The notes below the pieces were generated by a model. That model saw only the letters and a program-made list of their open reading frames with translations, ran no database searches and had not been told where the DNA came from. Both the position numbers and the translations under genes were made by a program. Below are positions 1,931 through 53,360 of a stretch of DNA of 53,926 bases, one piece after another (the stretch's first letter is position 1; each line of letters starts with the position of its first letter). This stretch comes from Bacteroidia bacterium (GTDB taxonomy: Bacteria; Bacteroidota; Bacteroidia; CAILMK01; JBBDIG01), in contig JBBDIG010000002.1 of NCBI GenBank assembly GCA_040880525.1, positions 1 through 53,926 on the forward strand, written 5' to 3'.

Positions 1931-3202
1931 TTATGAAATCATATCGAAGCCAGTATACTGAGCCAGGGCTTTGGGTAATTTAATTCCGTTAGCGGTCTGG
2001 TTGTTTTCAAGCAATGCAGCCACGATCCGTGGAAACGCAAGGGCGCTGCCATTCAGGGTATGGGCCAGGTCGGTTTTGCCTCCGCTGGTTTTATAGCGCA
2101 GCTTAAGCCGGTTGCTCTGGAAGGTTTCGAAATTTGAAACTGAGCTTACTTCCAGCCATTTTTGCTGCCCCGCAGACCAAACCTCCATATCATAAGTAAG
2201 CGCGGCTGCAAAGCCAAGATCGCCCGCGCAAAGCTTGGCCACTCGATATGGAAGTTCCAGCGCCTGAAGCAAACTTTCCACATATTCCACCATTTCCTCC
2301 AGCACCTGGTAGGAATCTTCAGGCTTTTCAATTCTTACGATTTCCACTTTGTCAAATTGATGCAGCCGGTTGAGGCCGCGCACATCTTTTCCATAGCTTC
2401 CGGCTTCCCGTCTGAAACAAGGCGTGTAAGCCGTTAGCTTCACCGGAAAATCACTTTCCTTCAGGATCACATCGCGGTAAATATTGGTAACAGGCACTTC
2501 AGCGGTAGGAATCAGATAGAGCTGGTCATTCTGCACATGATACATTTGGCCCTCTTTGTCAGGAAGCTGGCCGGTGCCATATCCGGTTTCTGCATTGATG
2601 AGGATAGGTGGCTGCACTTCGAGATAGCCGGCTTCCGTAGCCCGGTCAAGAAAAAAATTGACCAGTGCCCGCTGTAGCCTGGCACCTTTTCCCTTATAAA
2701 GCGGAAATCCTGATCCGGTTATTTTTACGCCTGCCTCGAAATCAATTAGGTCATATTTGCTGGTAAGATCCCAATGGGGTACAGCATCAGCCGAAAGCTG
2801 CAGTTTTTCTCCCCACTCACGGAGGATCTCATTATCTTCAGCAGCAGCGCCTGCAGGAACGCTGGCATGGGGAGCGTTCGGAATGCTCAACAATAGTTGG
2901 TGCAGTTCCGCTTCCGTTTCCTGCAGTACTTCGAAAAGCTCCTTTGACCGCTGTTTCAGTTCACCCGTTTCATTCTTCAGTTTCTCTGCTTCCGCTCCTT
3001 TTCCTTCGCTATATAGCTTTCCTATATCTGTAGCAATTTTTTTTGAACGGCTAAGGGTATCTTCATGGTCCTGCTTTAATTGCCGGATTTTCTTATCCAG
3101 TTCCACCACTTTTGCAATGCTTACCTTCCCTGGAAAATTTCGTTTCTCAAGGGCTGCGGCTATTTCTTCGGATTTTACCCTGATCTGGTATAAAGATAAC
3201 AT
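1931..3202 (-). CDS. serS: Seryl-tRNA synthetase
   Basis: Class II aminoacyl-tRNA synthetase that charges tRNA-Ser (and tRNA-Sec where present) with serine in the cytoplasm. It has 423 residues, the usual size. Residues 1 to about 110 are the tRNA-binding antiparallel coiled coil (Lys/Glu-rich, containing KKIRQLKQDHEDTLSRSKKI). The catalytic core follows. Motif 2 is visible as CFRREAGSYGKDVRGLNRLH and motif 3 as TLNGSALAFPRIVAALLEN, with the serine-pocket region TAEVPVTN. The ATG start opens directly into MLSLYQIR, near the family's usual N-terminus. It is a single gene, divergent from the SBBP-repeat gene, with a terminator directly after the stop. Confidence 0.97.
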   Translation of the reverse strand: MLSLYQIRVKSEEIAAALEKRNFPGKVSIAKVVELDKKIRQLKQDHEDTLSRSKKIATDIGKLYSEGKGAEAEKLKNETGELKQRSKELFEVLQETEAELHQLLLSIPNAPHASVPAGAAAEDNEILREWGEKLQLSADAVPHWDLTSKYDLIDFEAGVKITGSGFPLYKGKGARLQRALVNFFLDRATEAGYLEVQPPILINAETGYGTGQLPDKEGQMYHVQNDQLYLIPTAEVPVTNIYRDVILKESDFPVKLTAYTPCFRREAGSYGKDVRGLNRLHQFDKVEIVRIEKPEDSYQVLEEMVEYVESLLQALELPYRVAKLCAGDLGFAAALTYDMEVWSAGQQKWLEVSSVSNFETFQSNRLKLRYKTSGGKTDLAHTLNGSALAFPRIVAALLENNQTANGIKLPKALAQYTGFDMIS

Positions 3203-3226
3203 GGCTTCGGGTTTTTAAATGAGGGG

Positions 3227-3262
3227 CAAAAATAGCAAGGCAGGAGACATCTTGGAACTCAA
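3227..3262 (-). promoter_or_regulatory. Candidate Bacteroidetes-type promoter for serS
   Basis: On the minus strand TATTTTTG (plus-strand 3227-3234) matches the -7 consensus TAnnTTTG, and TTTG (complement of 3260-3263) could serve as the -33 element. The spacer of 25 is slightly long. It lies 25 bases upstream of the serS start. Confidence 0.4.
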
Positions 3263-3285
3263 ATTGTGTTAGTTCGGTAGATTTG
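3252..3285 (+). promoter_or_regulatory. Candidate promoter for the SBBP-repeat gene
   Basis: TTG at 3252-3254, a 23-base spacer, then TAGATTTG at 3278-3285 fit the Bacteroidetes sigma-A pattern. The predicted transcription start (about 3292) falls after the ATG at 3290 and before the ATG at 3305, which favours the later start codon. Confidence 0.45.
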
Positions 3286-3304
3286 ACTGATGGTAATCCT
3301 CAAC

Positions 3305-6067
3305 ATGGCTTTTATACAACGCCTATTCTCTCTTAAACTGCTGCCCATTTTTGCGCTTCTGGTTCTTTTACCAGGCAGCGTTATCAGTCAGGTTCACTTC
3401 GTAGCCAACAAGAATCAGTGGCCAGAACCTTTCGCTTACAGGGCTAAAATTCCTGGCGGAATGTTCTACCTCTCGCAGAACCGCTTCATTTATTGTTTGA
3501 CAGATTTTGAAAAAATTCATGATATACACCACGGAAGCGCTACCGATGGAAAAGTAAGCCATCATGCTGTGCAAGTGAATTTTGAAGGCGCCAATGCTCA
3601 ACCTGTAATTACCGAATCGGATCCTACCTCTTTTTACTATAATTACTTTTTAGAAAAAAATCCGGAAACATGGGTTTCGCGGCTTTATGGCTATCAAACC
3701 CTGGTTGTAAAAGATATTTATCCTAAAGTGGATTTGGAGCTTTTAGGAAAAAATGACGGTTTGAAATATAACTTTATCGTACATCCCGGAGGCAACCCGG
3801 CTTCAATAAAAATGGCTTATTCAGGAGCAGATGATCTTAATCTTGAAAACGGTGAACTGGTAATCCAGACTTCACTTGGAAAGCTTAAAGAATCAGCTCC
3901 TGAGGCATGGCAGATCAGCAATGGAAAGAAAAAGACAGTATCCGTAAAATGGCAGCTTGAAGGCAATCAGGTTGGTTTTTCATTCGCTGAAGGATATGAT
4001 CCCAACCTCCTGCTGTATATAGATCCCGAAGTGATTTTTTCCACGTATTCAGGCTCCAATGCTGATAACTTCGGCTACACCGCCACCTTTGATCAGCAGG
4101 GCAATGCTTATTCAGGAGGAACAGCCTTCGGGCCGCAATTTCCTGCCACCACCGGTGCATTTGAAACCACATTCCAGGGTGGCGTTCCGGAACCTGTTTC
4201 CACCGGCTTTGGAGAGGACAGGGATGTCGGCATCCTGAAATATTCCCCGGATGGCACACAATTGCTGTTTGCCACCTATCTGGGTGGTTCACATAACGAA
4301 GACCCGCACAGCATGGTGGTGAATAACAAAAATGAACTGATCGTTTTCGGAAATACGGGATCGCCTGATTTTCCGGTTACACCCTCAGCTTACGATACCA
4401 GTTTCAATGGTGCGCATGATATTTATGTGGTTAAGTTTTCAGAAGATGGCACAAATCTCCTGGCCGGAACTTATGTTGGCGGAGCAGGTGAAGACGGTCT
4501 TAATCATAAATATGATTCAGCAGGATTGAACCTAATTCCACTGAAACAGAACTATGGTGATGACTTCAGAGGAGAAGTGATTGCAGATACTGACAATTCC
4601 GTTTTCGTGGCGACATGTACTCAGTCTGAAGATTTTCCGGTTAGCTCAAACGCCTTTCAACCGGCTTTTGGCGGTGATAATCAGGATGGCTGTATTTTCA
4701 AACTTAGTGATGATCTCTCTTCCCTGCTATGGAGTTCTTTTCTTGGCGGAGAAGGAGATGATGCAGCTTTCGGAATCACGGTTTCGGAAGATCATAGTGT
4801 TTACGTTTGTGGAGGAACGGAAAGTTCGTCTCTTTTCCAGGTTACTTCGGCCTATCAGGATGCGAATAGAGGGGGCGAGGCCGATGCCTTTGTTTGCCAT
4901 ATTGACGCAGATGGAACGTCCATTTTACACGGTACTTTTTTAGGAACATCGAGTTATGATCAGGCATATTTTATTCAGCAGGATATATCCGGTAATATCT
5001 ATATTGCCGGACAGACAGATGGCCCCGGAGCATTTCCGGTTCATAATACCCAATATATTGACGACAACAGCGGCCAGTTCATCACCAAGATAAATGGCTC
5101 GCTGACGGACATTATCTACTCTACCTTGTTTGGCAATGGAAGCGGAAAAGCCCTTCTTTCGCCATCCGCATTTTTGGTGGATAAATGTGAACGGCTATAT
5201 TTTTCAGGCTGGGGTGGTAACACCAATAGTCCACCCTTCGGGCCAGGGGGTGATATAAGTGGCCTTCGTCTCACGGATGATGCTTTTCAAAAGTCTACTG
5301 ACGGTTCTGACTTTTACCTCGCTGTGTGGTCGCGGGAAATGGAAAGCCTGCTCTATGCTACTTACTGGGGCAGCCCAAACAGCGATGAACATGTGGATGG
5401 CGGCACAAGCAGGTTTGATAAGAATGCCATTGTTTACCAGTCCGTGTGTGCAGGATGCGGTGGTGATGACAATTTCCCCACAACGCCCGGGGTATGGTCA
5501 AATACCAATAACAGCAGCAATTGCAACAACGCGATCTTTAAGATTGACCTTGAAATACCGCTTCCGGATTTTACCTGGAGCTTAGACTCCTGCGTATTTG
5601 AATATACATTTGAGGATATTTCCGGATCAGAATCTGATAAATACTGGATATTCCCTGATGGCTCCACCAGCGAAGAGGATAATCCCGGGTATTTCTTCAC
5701 TGAACCGGGTTCTTATCCTGTGAGCCTCATACTGAATAAGGGCACAGCTTGCGAGGATACCGTTACGCTGAATGTGGTAGTTGTGGAAGATTCATATGAA
5801 GAGATCTTCGTTCCCAATGTTTTTACGCCCAATGCCGGAGATGATCTTAACAGTTATTTTACCGTGAAGGGAATCAATTACAGTTGCGAGGATATAGACC
5901 TTTCCATTTTCAATCGCTGGGGGGAGAAAGTGTATGAAATACAGAACCAGGAACCCCGTTGGGACGGTACTTTTAACGGCACACCGCTACCCGAAGGAGC
6001 TTATTATTATCTTCTTAAAAGCACTCGCATTGGATCAGTGCACGGCACCATTACGCTGATCCGGTAG
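3305..6067 (+). CDS. SBBP-repeat beta-propeller protein with PKD domain and T9SS type B sorting domain
   Basis: A secreted protein of about 920 residues, probably surface-exposed. A signal peptide (LPIFALLVLLPGSVISQ) comes first. Next is an N-terminal domain typical of SBBP proteins (begins NKNQWPEPFAYRAKIPGG). Then repeats of the type YSPDGTQLLFATYLGG, KFSEDGTNLLAGTYVGG and KLSDDLSSLLWSSFLGG occur through about residue 700; these are SBBP repeats, predicted to fold as beta-propeller blades. A Cys-containing PKD-like domain follows (ending YFFTEPGSYPVSLILN). The end is a CHU_C domain (VPNVFTPNAGDDLNSYF, LSIFNRWGEKVYE, PLPEGAYYYLLK), the type B signal for the type IX secretion system. An alternative ATG lies at 3290. 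Ligand and exact role are unknown; adhesin or matrix protein is an inference. Confidence 0.9.
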   Translation: MAFIQRLFSLKLLPIFALLVLLPGSVISQVHFVANKNQWPEPFAYRAKIPGGMFYLSQNRFIYCLTDFEKIHDIHHGSATDGKVSHHAVQVNFEGANAQPVITESDPTSFYYNYFLEKNPETWVSRLYGYQTLVVKDIYPKVDLELLGKNDGLKYNFIVHPGGNPASIKMAYSGADDLNLENGELVIQTSLGKLKESAPEAWQISNGKKKTVSVKWQLEGNQVGFSFAEGYDPNLLLYIDPEVIFSTYSGSNADNFGYTATFDQQGNAYSGGTAFGPQFPATTGAFETTFQGGVPEPVSTGFGEDRDVGILKYSPDGTQLLFATYLGGSHNEDPHSMVVNNKNELIVFGNTGSPDFPVTPSAYDTSFNGAHDIYVVKFSEDGTNLLAGTYVGGAGEDGLNHKYDSAGLNLIPLKQNYGDDFRGEVIADTDNSVFVATCTQSEDFPVSSNAFQPAFGGDNQDGCIFKLSDDLSSLLWSSFLGGEGDDAAFGITVSEDHSVYVCGGTESSSLFQVTSAYQDANRGGEADAFVCHIDADGTSILHGTFLGTSSYDQAYFIQQDISGNIYIAGQTDGPGAFPVHNTQYIDDNSGQFITKINGSLTDIIYSTLFGNGSGKALLSPSAFLVDKCERLYFSGWGGNTNSPPFGPGGDISGLRLTDDAFQKSTDGSDFYLAVWSREMESLLYATYWGSPNSDEHVDGGTSRFDKNAIVYQSVCAGCGGDDNFPTTPGVWSNTNNSSNCNNAIFKIDLEIPLPDFTWSLDSCVFEYTFEDISGSESDKYWIFPDGSTSEEDNPGYFFTEPGSYPVSLILNKGTACEDTVTLNVVVVEDSYEEIFVPNVFTPNAGDDLNSYFTVKGINYSCEDIDLSIFNRWGEKVYEIQNQEPRWDGTFNGTPLPEGAYYYLLKSTRIGSVHGTITLIR

Positions 6068-47919: not shown

Positions 47920-50040
47920 ATGCACAGGATTATCGGAGTAGAGTTAAGCCACCAAAACGCCCCTCTAAACATTAGAGAAAAAATTGTTCTCACCAAAGAA
48001 GAAACGGTGCAGGCAATGCATGAGATGAAATCCAGGCTAAACGAAGTCCTGATTATTTCTACCTGCAACCGCCTGGCAGTTTATACTTATAGCACCAATT
48101 ATCGCCCTGTCCTGGACTTCTTCAACCGGTTCGGAAATCTCAACCTTTATCTCACCATCTACGATTATGATGACTCGGCAGTGCGCCATCTGTTCAGTAC
48201 GGCAGCGGGCCTGAAGAGCCAGGTAGTCGGTGAGCACCAGATACTGGGACAGATCAAAGACAGCTACCATACGGCCAGAGAAGCAGGAGCGCTCGGTCCG
48301 GTAATGCATGAATTCTCACGCAGGGCCATACGGGCCGGAAAGCGCGTTCGCGGAGAAACATCCATCGGACAGTTTGCCACTTCCATTGCTTCCGTAGCAT
48401 TCGAATTGGTGAACAAAATACACCCCCAATTGAGGGGCGCGAAAGTGCTCGTACTCGGTACCGGAGAGATGGCCAACCTGATCCTGCAAATGCTGGCGAA
48501 GACCGAAGTAAGTAAACTCATGGTAGCAAGCCGGGAACTGAACCGGGCCTCTCAGATAGCTGGAATTTACCAGGCCACCCCGGTAGCTCTTGGCAATCTG
48601 GATGAAATACTGAAAGAAGCCGATGTAATTGTGGGTGCTACCGCTGCGGCTGAAGTTATCGTTTCGCGGGAACAGATGCTGCCTTATGTAAATGGACATA
48701 GTAAATTGTTCATTGATATGGGGATGCCGCGCAATTTTGCTCCTGAAATTGCAGATCTGGAAAATATTACACTCCATGATCTTGACAGCATCAAGGATCT
48801 TACTTACCAGGGCATTATGAAACGCCAAAAGGAAATCCCCAAGGCGAAGGCTATCATTAATGATGAGGTGGAGGATTTTGTGTACTGGTTAAATGCAAAA
48901 CGGGTACATCCGCTGATCTCCGGCTATTATAACCAGCTTGAAATTATAAAGGCCCGCGAAATGAGCTGGGTCATTCCCAAGATGGGAACACTGGACGAGA
49001 CCCAAAAAAAGATCATTGACAAGTTTGCCAACCGCCTGATCAGCCACGTGAGCAAACGCCCCGTTGAAGTGTTGAAAACTTATGCACAAGAACCCCATGG
49101 CCGCGACCGGCCTATTGATACTTTTCGTGAAATCTTTAATCTGAAAGACGTGCATATCCATATCCCTAAAAGAAGGATCATCGTGGGAAGCCGCGACAGC
49201 AAACTGGCGCTGGCGCAAACCAATGAGGTGATTGAGAAGCTAAAAGAAATGGATCCTGACAATGAATTTATGATTAAAACCATAAAGACAAGCGGAGACA
49301 TGGGGCATTTGGAAGAACTTGGGGCGTGGGTAAAAGAGGTAGAACGGGCATTACTCGACAAGGAAATTGACCTTGCCGTACACAGTATGAAGGATATGCC
49401 CACGGAAATTCCGGAAGGTGTGATTATAGCTGGCATCCCGGAGCGAGCCGACCCTCGTGATGTGTTGCTGAGCAATGACGGCAAAAAGCTGGAACAGATG
49501 CCTCCCGGTAGCAGGATTGGCACCACCAGTATGCGCAGAGGATTTCAGATACAAAGGCTTCAGCCGGGGATGGAGATTGTGCCGGTGCGTGGAAACATCA
49601 TTACCCGTATGAGCAAACTGGAAGGTGGCGAATATGATGCGATCATCCTCGCGGCTGCGGGTCTGCAACGGCTCGGAATTCTGAATCGTATCACCGAAAT
49701 TTTCAGCGTAGAGCAAATGGTGCCTGCAGTTGGACAAGGTGCGTTGGCCGCAGAGATCCGGGAAGACGATTTGAAATTGAAACAACTCCTGGAAAAGATC
49801 AACCACCGCGAAACCGAACTAGCCATAACCGCTGAGCGCGCCCTCCTGCATGAATTGGGTGGTGGATGCCGGATGCCCATTGGTGGCTATGCTAAAATCA
49901 CGGGTAATTCAATCACACTGCATGGAATGTATGCAAACGACAGCGGTACTAAAATTAACTTTGATCACCTGACCGCAGACATTTCAGAAGTAGAAGAAAT
50001 GGGAAAACGGCTGGCAGCACGCCTGAAAAAAGGCATTTAA
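47920..50040 (+). CDS. hemAC: Fused glutamyl-tRNA reductase and hydroxymethylbilane synthase
   Basis: 706 residues in one unbroken frame. Residues 1 to about 412 are glutamyl-tRNA reductase: catalytic Cys49 in IISTCNRLAVY, GEHQILGQIKDSY, NADPH site VLVLGTGEMANL, and a C-terminal dimerisation region to about 410. Residues about 417-706 are hydroxymethylbilane synthase: RIIVGSRDSKLALAQTNEV, the Asp in DLAVHSMKDMPTE, RGNIITRMSKLEGG and the dipyrromethane-cofactor Cys650 in LHELGGGCRMPIGG. Together they catalyse the first and third dedicated steps of C5 tetrapyrrole synthesis (glutamyl-tRNA to glutamate semialdehyde, and porphobilinogen to hydroxymethylbilane). No ATG, GTG or stop suggests two separate genes at the joint. 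hemL and hemB are not nearby. Confidence 0.93.
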   Translation: MHRIIGVELSHQNAPLNIREKIVLTKEETVQAMHEMKSRLNEVLIISTCNRLAVYTYSTNYRPVLDFFNRFGNLNLYLTIYDYDDSAVRHLFSTAAGLKSQVVGEHQILGQIKDSYHTAREAGALGPVMHEFSRRAIRAGKRVRGETSIGQFATSIASVAFELVNKIHPQLRGAKVLVLGTGEMANLILQMLAKTEVSKLMVASRELNRASQIAGIYQATPVALGNLDEILKEADVIVGATAAAEVIVSREQMLPYVNGHSKLFIDMGMPRNFAPEIADLENITLHDLDSIKDLTYQGIMKRQKEIPKAKAIINDEVEDFVYWLNAKRVHPLISGYYNQLEIIKAREMSWVIPKMGTLDETQKKIIDKFANRLISHVSKRPVEVLKTYAQEPHGRDRPIDTFREIFNLKDVHIHIPKRRIIVGSRDSKLALAQTNEVIEKLKEMDPDNEFMIKTIKTSGDMGHLEELGAWVKEVERALLDKEIDLAVHSMKDMPTEIPEGVIIAGIPERADPRDVLLSNDGKKLEQMPPGSRIGTTSMRRGFQIQRLQPGMEIVPVRGNIITRMSKLEGGEYDAIILAAAGLQRLGILNRITEIFSVEQMVPAVGQGALAAEIREDDLKLKQLLEKINHRETELAITAERALLHELGGGCRMPIGGYAKITGNSITLHGMYANDSGTKINFDHLTADISEVEEMGKRLAARLKKGI

Positions 50041-51977: not shown

Positions 51978-53360
51978 TCAGATCACCGGTTGTATTCCCG
52001 ATCCGGATTTCCCGGATTTTCCGTCACGCATTTCAGAGATCCCCTGTACTACATCCTTCATCGTTTCGCTCTTAATATATTCTTCCCATTCATTGCGCAC
52101 GCTAAGCGTCTCCAGCACCTTGTTCTGCTGATCGCTCAGGAAGAGCGCTTTGGAATATGGGATGTTGGAAAAAGTCACCAGGCCATAAGCCGGGATCCAG
52201 TGCTCCGGATATAACTGCTGTATTCTGCGTGAAATTTCTCTCTTTCTCAAAAAGTGAGGATCCGCAACGAGGTCGCGCATTTCAATGAAGTTGCGCAGCG
52301 CCAATTCTGCTATTGCATCGCCATCGGTCTTTCGTTTCAGGCTGAAATCTGCGAGAATATTCGTCCAGTTATCGCCATGTTGCAGCATCAATTGCTCGAG
52401 TACTGTGCAGTCTTCAAATCCCGCATTCATTCCCTGCCCGTAAAAAGGCACAATTGCATGAGCGGCATCGCCCATCAGGCAGGTTTTGTCTTTATAATGC
52501 CACGGTGCGCAGGACACCGTCACAAGGCTACCGGTAGGATTGCTGAAAAAATCCCGGGCCAGTTCCGGCATCAATTCGGTGGCGTCCGGAAAATATTGCT
52601 CAAAAAATAGCTGCACGGCCTGCGCATTCTGAAGACTGGCGAAAGATTCATCGCCTTCAAAAGTCAGGAATAGAGTTACGGTATAGCTGCCATCCATATT
52701 CGGCAGTGCAATGAGCATGAAATGTTTTCTTGGCCAGATGTGGAGCGCATTTTTCTCCATCTGCCAGCGGCCATCCTTGCCAGGAGGAATGGTAAGTTCT
52801 TTATATCCATGCGGAAGAAATTGCTGGCTGTAATTAAACCGTTCACTTTGCAGCATCATATTCAGCCGCACTTGCGAAAACGCTCCATCGGCTCCAAAAA
52901 TGAGCTTGTATTGCCGCTGCTTTCCACCTTCAGATTGTACTATTCCTGTTTCCAGGTCCAGCGCATCTACTTTCTCCTCAAAGTATATTTTTACCTTTTC
53001 AGAAGCCTCGGCAATGGTCATCATCTTTTCGTTGAGCCCCCCACGCGAAACAGAATAAATTGCCTGTCCTGCCCGGCCATAAGGCAGCAGGTTGAGTGTA
53101 CCATCCTCCGCATGGATCATCCGGCCGTGCATCGGGATGGCTATTTTCATGATCTCATCCCGGATTCCTACGCTCTCCAGCGCTTTCCACCCGCGGTCGC
53201 TTAGCGCCAGGTTGATGGATCGTCCTGCCGCTGCACCGGTTTTTCGCATATCCGGCCTGCGCTCCAGTACATCCACCGCATAGCCATGCTTTGCCAGGAA
53301 AAGCGACCATAATGAGCCTACCAAACCTGCACCCGCTATACATATTCTTTCTTCTGCCAT
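51978..53360 (-). CDS. kmo: Kynurenine 3-monooxygenase
   Basis: An FAD- and NADPH-dependent hydroxylase that converts kynurenine to 3-hydroxykynurenine in tryptophan degradation and in the eukaryotic-like route to NAD. It has 460 residues. The FAD Rossmann motif is ICIAGAGLVGSLWSLFLAKH, the second FAD motif GDAAHAIVPFYGQGMNAGFE, and the KMO-typical RSINLALSDRGWKAL and RAGQAIYSVSRGGLN are present. A C-terminal helix region follows. The ATG at 53360 fits the family start. No other kynurenine-pathway gene is in the window. It leads the lipoprotein gene by 16 bases. Confidence 0.95.
   Translation of the reverse strand: MAEERICIAGAGLVGSLWSLFLAKHGYAVDVLERRPDMRKTGAAAGRSINLALSDRGWKALESVGIRDEIMKIAIPMHGRMIHAEDGTLNLLPYGRAGQAIYSVSRGGLNEKMMTIAEASEKVKIYFEEKVDALDLETGIVQSEGGKQRQYKLIFGADGAFSQVRLNMMLQSERFNYSQQFLPHGYKELTIPPGKDGRWQMEKNALHIWPRKHFMLIALPNMDGSYTVTLFLTFEGDESFASLQNAQAVQLFFEQYFPDATELMPELARDFFSNPTGSLVTVSCAPWHYKDKTCLMGDAAHAIVPFYGQGMNAGFEDCTVLEQLMLQHGDNWTNILADFSLKRKTDGDAIAELALRNFIEMRDLVADPHFLRKREISRRIQQLYPEHWIPAYGLVTFSNIPYSKALFLSDQQNKVLETLSVRNEWEEYIKSETMKDVVQGISEMRDGKSGKSGSGIQPVI

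Follow-up and report, generated by a model that had tools for sequence, protein, structure and literature searches.

The DNA analyzed here, a window of 53,926 nucleotides from a Bacteroidia bacterium, carries a gene in which hemA, coding for glutamyl-tRNA reductase (GluTR), is fused to hemC, coding for hydroxymethylbilane synthase (HMBS). A single ATG-started open frame of 706 amino acids, free of internal stops, encodes a complete GluTR, a linker of about 11 residues and a complete HMBS, in that order. The features are as follows, with the basis for each in parentheses.

47920..50040, + strand: hemA-hemC fusion gene, 706 aa (open frame; only GluTR and HMBS found in the genome)
47920..49143, + strand: GluTR half, residues 1-408, with catalytic, NADPH and dimerisation domains (Pfam, TIGR01035, alignment with 1gpj and 4n7r)
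48064..48066, + strand: codon of catalytic Cys49 in STCNR (invariant in GluTR alignments)
49144..49176, + strand: linker, residues 409-419, about KDVHIHIPKRR (resembles the f83 linker; pN/pS in f83; shuffle test)
49177..50037, + strand: HMBS half, residues 420-706 (Pfam, TIGR00212, alignment with 4mlq and 1pda, AlphaFold2 pLDDT)
49300..49320, + strand: shortened active-site lid loop, residues 461-467, six fewer than usual (HMBS length comparison)
49867..49869, + strand: codon of Cys650, the dipyrromethane cofactor attachment site, Cys242 in E. coli (alignment)

Curated Pfam cut-offs are well exceeded in both halves: by GlutR_N (residues 7-147), Shikimate_DH (162-293) and GlutR_dimer (308-408, the whole profile) in the GluTR half, and by Porphobil_deam (420-621) and Porphobil_deamC (634-703) in the HMBS half. 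The NCBIfam models TIGR01035 (hemA, 329 bits) and TIGR00212 (hemC, 339 bits) also score above cut-off. These results confirm an initial annotation that had read hemA and hemC as one frame without a stop at these coordinates; its joint at about residue 413-417 agrees with the one found at about 409-419, Cys49 and Cys650 (in GGGC) lie where it had placed them, and it correctly described the two enzymes as catalyzing the first and third dedicated steps of the pathway, which are not consecutive. The genome assembly (3.8 Mb, 60 contigs, 98.4% complete) was searched throughout for a second copy of either enzyme, and none was found; the fused gene is its sole GluTR and sole HMBS.

About 670 distinct Bacteroidota genomes were examined in all, and 44 of them carry the fusion: that of the window and 43 of family f83, a single family comprising the 46 examined genomes of a second, not closely related Bacteroidia order. 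No fusion was seen elsewhere in this collection, in which hemA and hemC are usually separate. Among 60 relatives, one genome (G335, from this other order of the same class) has the fusion, at 46% identity. Within the order of G335, 43 of the 46 genomes, spanning about 15 genera, gave a match, and the GluTR-HMBS junction is open in all 43; incomplete genes among these are those of G372 and G355, whose starts fall on a different contig or beyond a contig end, and that of G379, whose HMBS end is broken. The other three f83 genomes (G365, G376 and G386) contained no match to the fusion. HemB is present in G365 and G376, and an assembly gap or a loss may lie behind the missing match. Sampling 395 genomes of the class recovered fusions exclusively in the window and f83. 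No further fusion turned up among 296 genomes sampled across the phylum, many of which have adjoining hemA and hemC genes split by a stop. Strict pattern scans of genome contigs and a plasmid search also detected no fusion. Four candidates with long open-frame values (G311, G605, G062 and G556) proved unfused on direct reading, as these values run through stops.

The initial annotation had left open whether such fusions are already catalogued and had proposed mapping their spread; 43 more genomes with the fusion were found, all in one other Bacteroidia order. It had also allowed for a stop or frameshift concealed at the joint, which is not borne out, since the junction is open in each of these genomes. 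The occurrence of the same architecture in a second order implies that the fusion is neither a chance event nor a sequencing slip. An assembly or sequencing artefact that deleted a stop between two genes would also have to account for a homologous-looking linker under purifying selection (see below), and we regard this explanation as effectively ruled out. From these comparisons, we conclude that the fusion is genuine, was formed long ago and has been kept.

Twelve genomes of the window's own order were examined. In those of family f53 (G297, G303 and G306), hemA and hemC are separate and adjoining. Eight of the 12 (G296, G298-G302, G304 and G305) lack matches to GluTR, HMBS and HemB alike, and a HEM4-type gene is present in the four of these that were tested. 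Heme synthesis has apparently been lost in these eight genomes.

The unfused f53 locus has the order hemA-hemC-hemD-hemB, and in G303 a chlorite dismutase/HemQ family gene comes next. In f83, the order is hemAC-hemD, with hemB next in G352. The fusion gene of the window genome is on contig C2, where no other heme gene adjoins it and it is flanked by a gene for a short-chain dehydrogenase on one side and two genes for acetyltransferases on the other; hemD, hemB and a HemQ-like gene are instead clustered on contig C23, and this cluster indicates that the genome encodes further steps towards heme. HemQ-like matches in this analysis score below the NCBIfam cut-off and above the Pfam cut-off for the chlorite dismutase family. 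A different arrangement occurs in G346, where HMBS and a HEM4 domain share one frame of 537 amino acids (HemC-HemD), and comparably long HMBS frames are found in many other genomes. The same genome has, on contig C11, a lone hemA of the fusion type (L037) that ends at the domain boundary, with HemC-HemD on another contig.

The two fused lineages share more than their domain order. Unfused f53 HemA proteins terminate in ...DTFKELFDL, or nearly so, followed by a stop. At the corresponding place, the window reads ...DTFREIFNL-KDVHIHIPKRR-IIVGSRDS, and a representative f83 protein reads ...FDL-KDVDIFVPKKR-VVVGTRGS. The linkers are therefore of equal length and similar sequence, and no similar linker was seen in unfused hemA or hemC relatives. 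When ten residues of the window linker were shuffled, the observed mean identity was reached in 0.013% of trials (p about 1e-4), and the best identity in 0.15%. Within f83, pN/pS is 0.30 for the linker, 0.31 for the end of HemA and 0.20 for the start of HemC, with synonymous change near saturation. By this measure, the linker codons of f83 are under purifying selection. An internal start in the linker that yields free HMBS was considered and rejected because f83 has no conserved in-frame ATG or GTG there, yet an in-frame GTG does occur in the window and an ATG in G355. The similarity of linker pN/pS to that of its flanks, together with the lack of a conserved start, argues that the linker is translated. 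The linker of G355 (L157) is divergent, reading QQQIEKEKYAMKKI with its internal in-frame ATG, in a gene that is otherwise fused.

Phylogenetic trees place hemA and hemC differently from RpoB and HemB. Window, f53, f83 and G346 form one clade in the HemA tree (support 100), and window, f53 and f83 form one in the HemC tree (support 99). For RpoB, monophyly of the window's order plus f83 is rejected (AU p 0.00034). Because HemA and HemC unite the window with f83 while RpoB and HemB do not, we infer that this type of hemA and hemC crossed between Bacteroidia orders by horizontal transfer, either as one gene or as a pair. We reject a transfer of the complete operon, since HemB of the window groups with f53 (100/98) and its clade with f83 is rejected (AU p 0.015).

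Whether the fusion itself arose once is a finer question. When HemA and HemC are joined, a single clade of fused genes is recovered, weakly supported (72/30), and keeping window and f53 together costs only 1.2 log units (p 0.36). The HemA tree puts unfused G346 next to f83 (94/94) and does not reject a single clade of fused genes (p 0.16). Two independent fusions, one in the window's family and one in f83, would suit the pairing of the window with unfused f53 in the HemC tree (89, not starred) and the separation of the two orders by RpoB, and the HemA and HemC trees are compatible with either one or two origins. This history would have to produce a linker of the same length and similar sequence twice, when unfused relatives sampled do not have it, unless HemC of the gene pair already carried this N-terminal stretch before fusing. 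We consider two origins rather unlikely. Because the linkers of both lineages are similar and equally long, a single origin is favored: the fusion probably arose once, where hemA and hemC adjoined in a hemA-hemC-hemD-hemB operon. A single origin, as favored by the linker, would imply that the genes later separated in f53 and that HemC was lost in G346.

The initial annotation had described both halves as looking catalytically intact. For the window protein, this assessment holds at the residues checked. Its GluTR half has the TIGR01035 domain order (catalytic, NADPH-binding, dimerisation), with Cys49, Arg51, His90 (equivalent to His99) and the GTG at 180-182 of the GxG motif in the NADPH site all present. 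The HMBS half has both Porphobil_deam domains and the equivalents of cofactor Cys242 and Asp84; positions 11, 131, 132, 149, 155 and 176 (E. coli numbering) are all arginine, and every position checked matches the consensus except for Ser128, which is Thr. The assessment does not extend to the HMBS active-site lid loop, which is six residues shorter in the window, f53 and f83, or to the fused relatives, which are altered at conserved positions. The measured lid span is 30 residues in these three groups (29 in one f53 protein), as opposed to 34 to 38, and nearly always 36, elsewhere. Thus, the window HMBS lacks the full-length lid (E. coli 42-60, with Asp50, Lys55 and Lys59), which is typical of the family and does not define it. 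Judged by TIGR00212, whose cut-off is far exceeded despite the short lid, the protein is nonetheless an HMBS, and its lid could work differently.

Arg149 of E. coli HMBS, which we take to be equivalent to human Arg167, is kept in the window and in all 62 other HMBS proteins, but is His in f53 (3/3) and Gln in f83 (31/31). Also in f83, Arg176 is replaced by Lys in 18 of 31 proteins, and the equivalent of GluTR His99, which is His in the window, is Asn in 30 of 30 (for example, L033). Positions 149 of HMBS and 99 of GluTR are invariant in the other sequences sampled, save for His149 of f53. Simulations of the E. coli enzyme indicate that Asp50 and Lys55 of the lid, with Arg149, steer the loop (PMC3945110). 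The human R167W variant causes porphyria and has a high Km and low Vmax (PMC7907807), yet a yeast screen found human Arg167 to tolerate substitution (PMC9934555). As both halves of the f83 proteins are altered at active-site positions that are otherwise conserved, their full activity cannot be assumed. However, because the genes are conserved and are the sole copies found, the changed enzymes are taken to work, presumably with altered details.

An AlphaFold2 model, built from a thin alignment, has pLDDT mostly above 90 in the HMBS half, falling below 50 in the short lid (460-465). The GluTR half is poorly modelled (pLDDT mostly below 60; mean 63 and pTM 0.50) because usable relatives are lacking.

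In all likelihood, the fused protein is a genuine bifunctional enzyme. The explanation that best fits these comparisons as a whole, and that very probably applies, is a bifunctional enzyme derived from fused operon neighbors, with 1:1 stoichiometry and no direct channelling. Both reactions would proceed as in the separate enzymes. The protein would be expected to dimerise through the GluTR dimerisation domain, giving two GluTR and two HMBS sites per dimer, and HemL and HemB might gather around it. The steps of HemL and HemB separate the two reactions, so that what the GluTR half produces is not what the HMBS half consumes, and a simple two-site hand-over makes no sense. If translated as read, the fusion would set the ratio and the common turnover of its domains. 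There is perhaps an even chance that its benefit lies here, in a fixed 1:1 amount and a shared fate of the enzymes that open the pathway and consume porphobilinogen. Co-regulation of flux entry, the benefit suggested by the initial annotation, is a hypothetical one.

The main rival to a beneficial fusion is a neutral one, in which the stop between adjacent in-frame genes was lost and the domains work as before, with no regulatory or kinetic gain. Such a route is easily envisaged: hemA and hemC are close and in the same frame in 28 of 40 unfused Bacteroidota loci measured (a sample whose fetching method favors in-frame loci), and the f53 relatives apparently manage without the fusion. Against neutrality, the fusion was retained in all 43 matching f83 genomes across about 15 genera, its linker is constrained, and it is rare (44 of ~670 genomes) even though the route to it is easy. 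We consider neutrality a plausible reading, if not the one we favor. Alternatively, the fusion might serve as a metabolon scaffold that keeps GluTR, HemL, HemB and HMBS close and passes intermediates among them. GluTR is a binding partner of HemL and has been proposed to channel glutamate-1-semialdehyde (PMC6399207), and joining the outer members of the four-step route could close such a complex; however, the window genome encodes HemB on a different contig, and we judge this scaffold improbable. More speculative still, and in our estimation quite doubtful, is a link between the fusion and the HMBS changes, whereby a lid-short HMBS with Arg149 freed to change would work inside a GluTR-HMBS enzyme that couples the entry step to porphobilinogen use physically, and perhaps allosterically.

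The bifunctional enzyme that we favor resembles several known systems. Ordinary hemA-hemC operons, as in Listeria and other Bacteroidota, have the same enzymes and gene order, with the pair often in the same frame; the fusion differs in having no stop, a linker of about 11 residues and an HMBS lid shorter by six residues. HemC-HemD fusions of Bacteroidia are likewise fused neighbors of one pathway. Unlike HemA-HemC, however, they join consecutive steps, place HMBS at the N terminus and do not involve GluTR. As a rule, pathway enzymes that are fused catalyze successive steps, and channelling is the usual explanation. In archaea, HemA-HemB is reported from one Sulfolobus assembly and HemC with CobA-HemD from Euryarchaeota (PMC11237513). 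Archaeal HemA-HemB is, like HemA-HemC, a rare fusion of non-consecutive early steps in heme synthesis. The archaeal fusions have other partners and are reported for one or two cases, whereas HemA-HemC spans a whole order. A search of the open-access full-text literature found no description of a HemA-HemC fusion. Automatic database records of the architecture probably exist, and "new" here means undescribed in the open-access literature searched.

A conserved fusion that joins early but non-consecutive steps offers a natural experiment on what else, besides channelling, may favor enzyme fusion, for example stoichiometry or shared turnover of the flux-setting enzyme. Moreover, natural partial loss of the lid and an order-wide change of Arg149 to Gln, at the position of human Arg167 that is mutated in acute intermittent porphyria, would make debated parts of the HMBS mechanism testable in enzymes that presumably work.

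Related genes also occur in viral contigs of IMG/VR. Eighty HMBS relatives were found there (L191-L270), 46 of which have a lid of usual length according to a simple pattern. Three contigs of 147 to 271 kb (L188-L190) carry, at about 2974-3987, an identical GluTR-like frame of 338 amino acids, too short for the usual dimerisation domain. Tetrapyrrole genes of phages are already known (PMC11480375). Elsewhere in the window, the product encoded at 51978-53360 on the reverse strand resembles, by eye, a kynurenine 3-monooxygenase.
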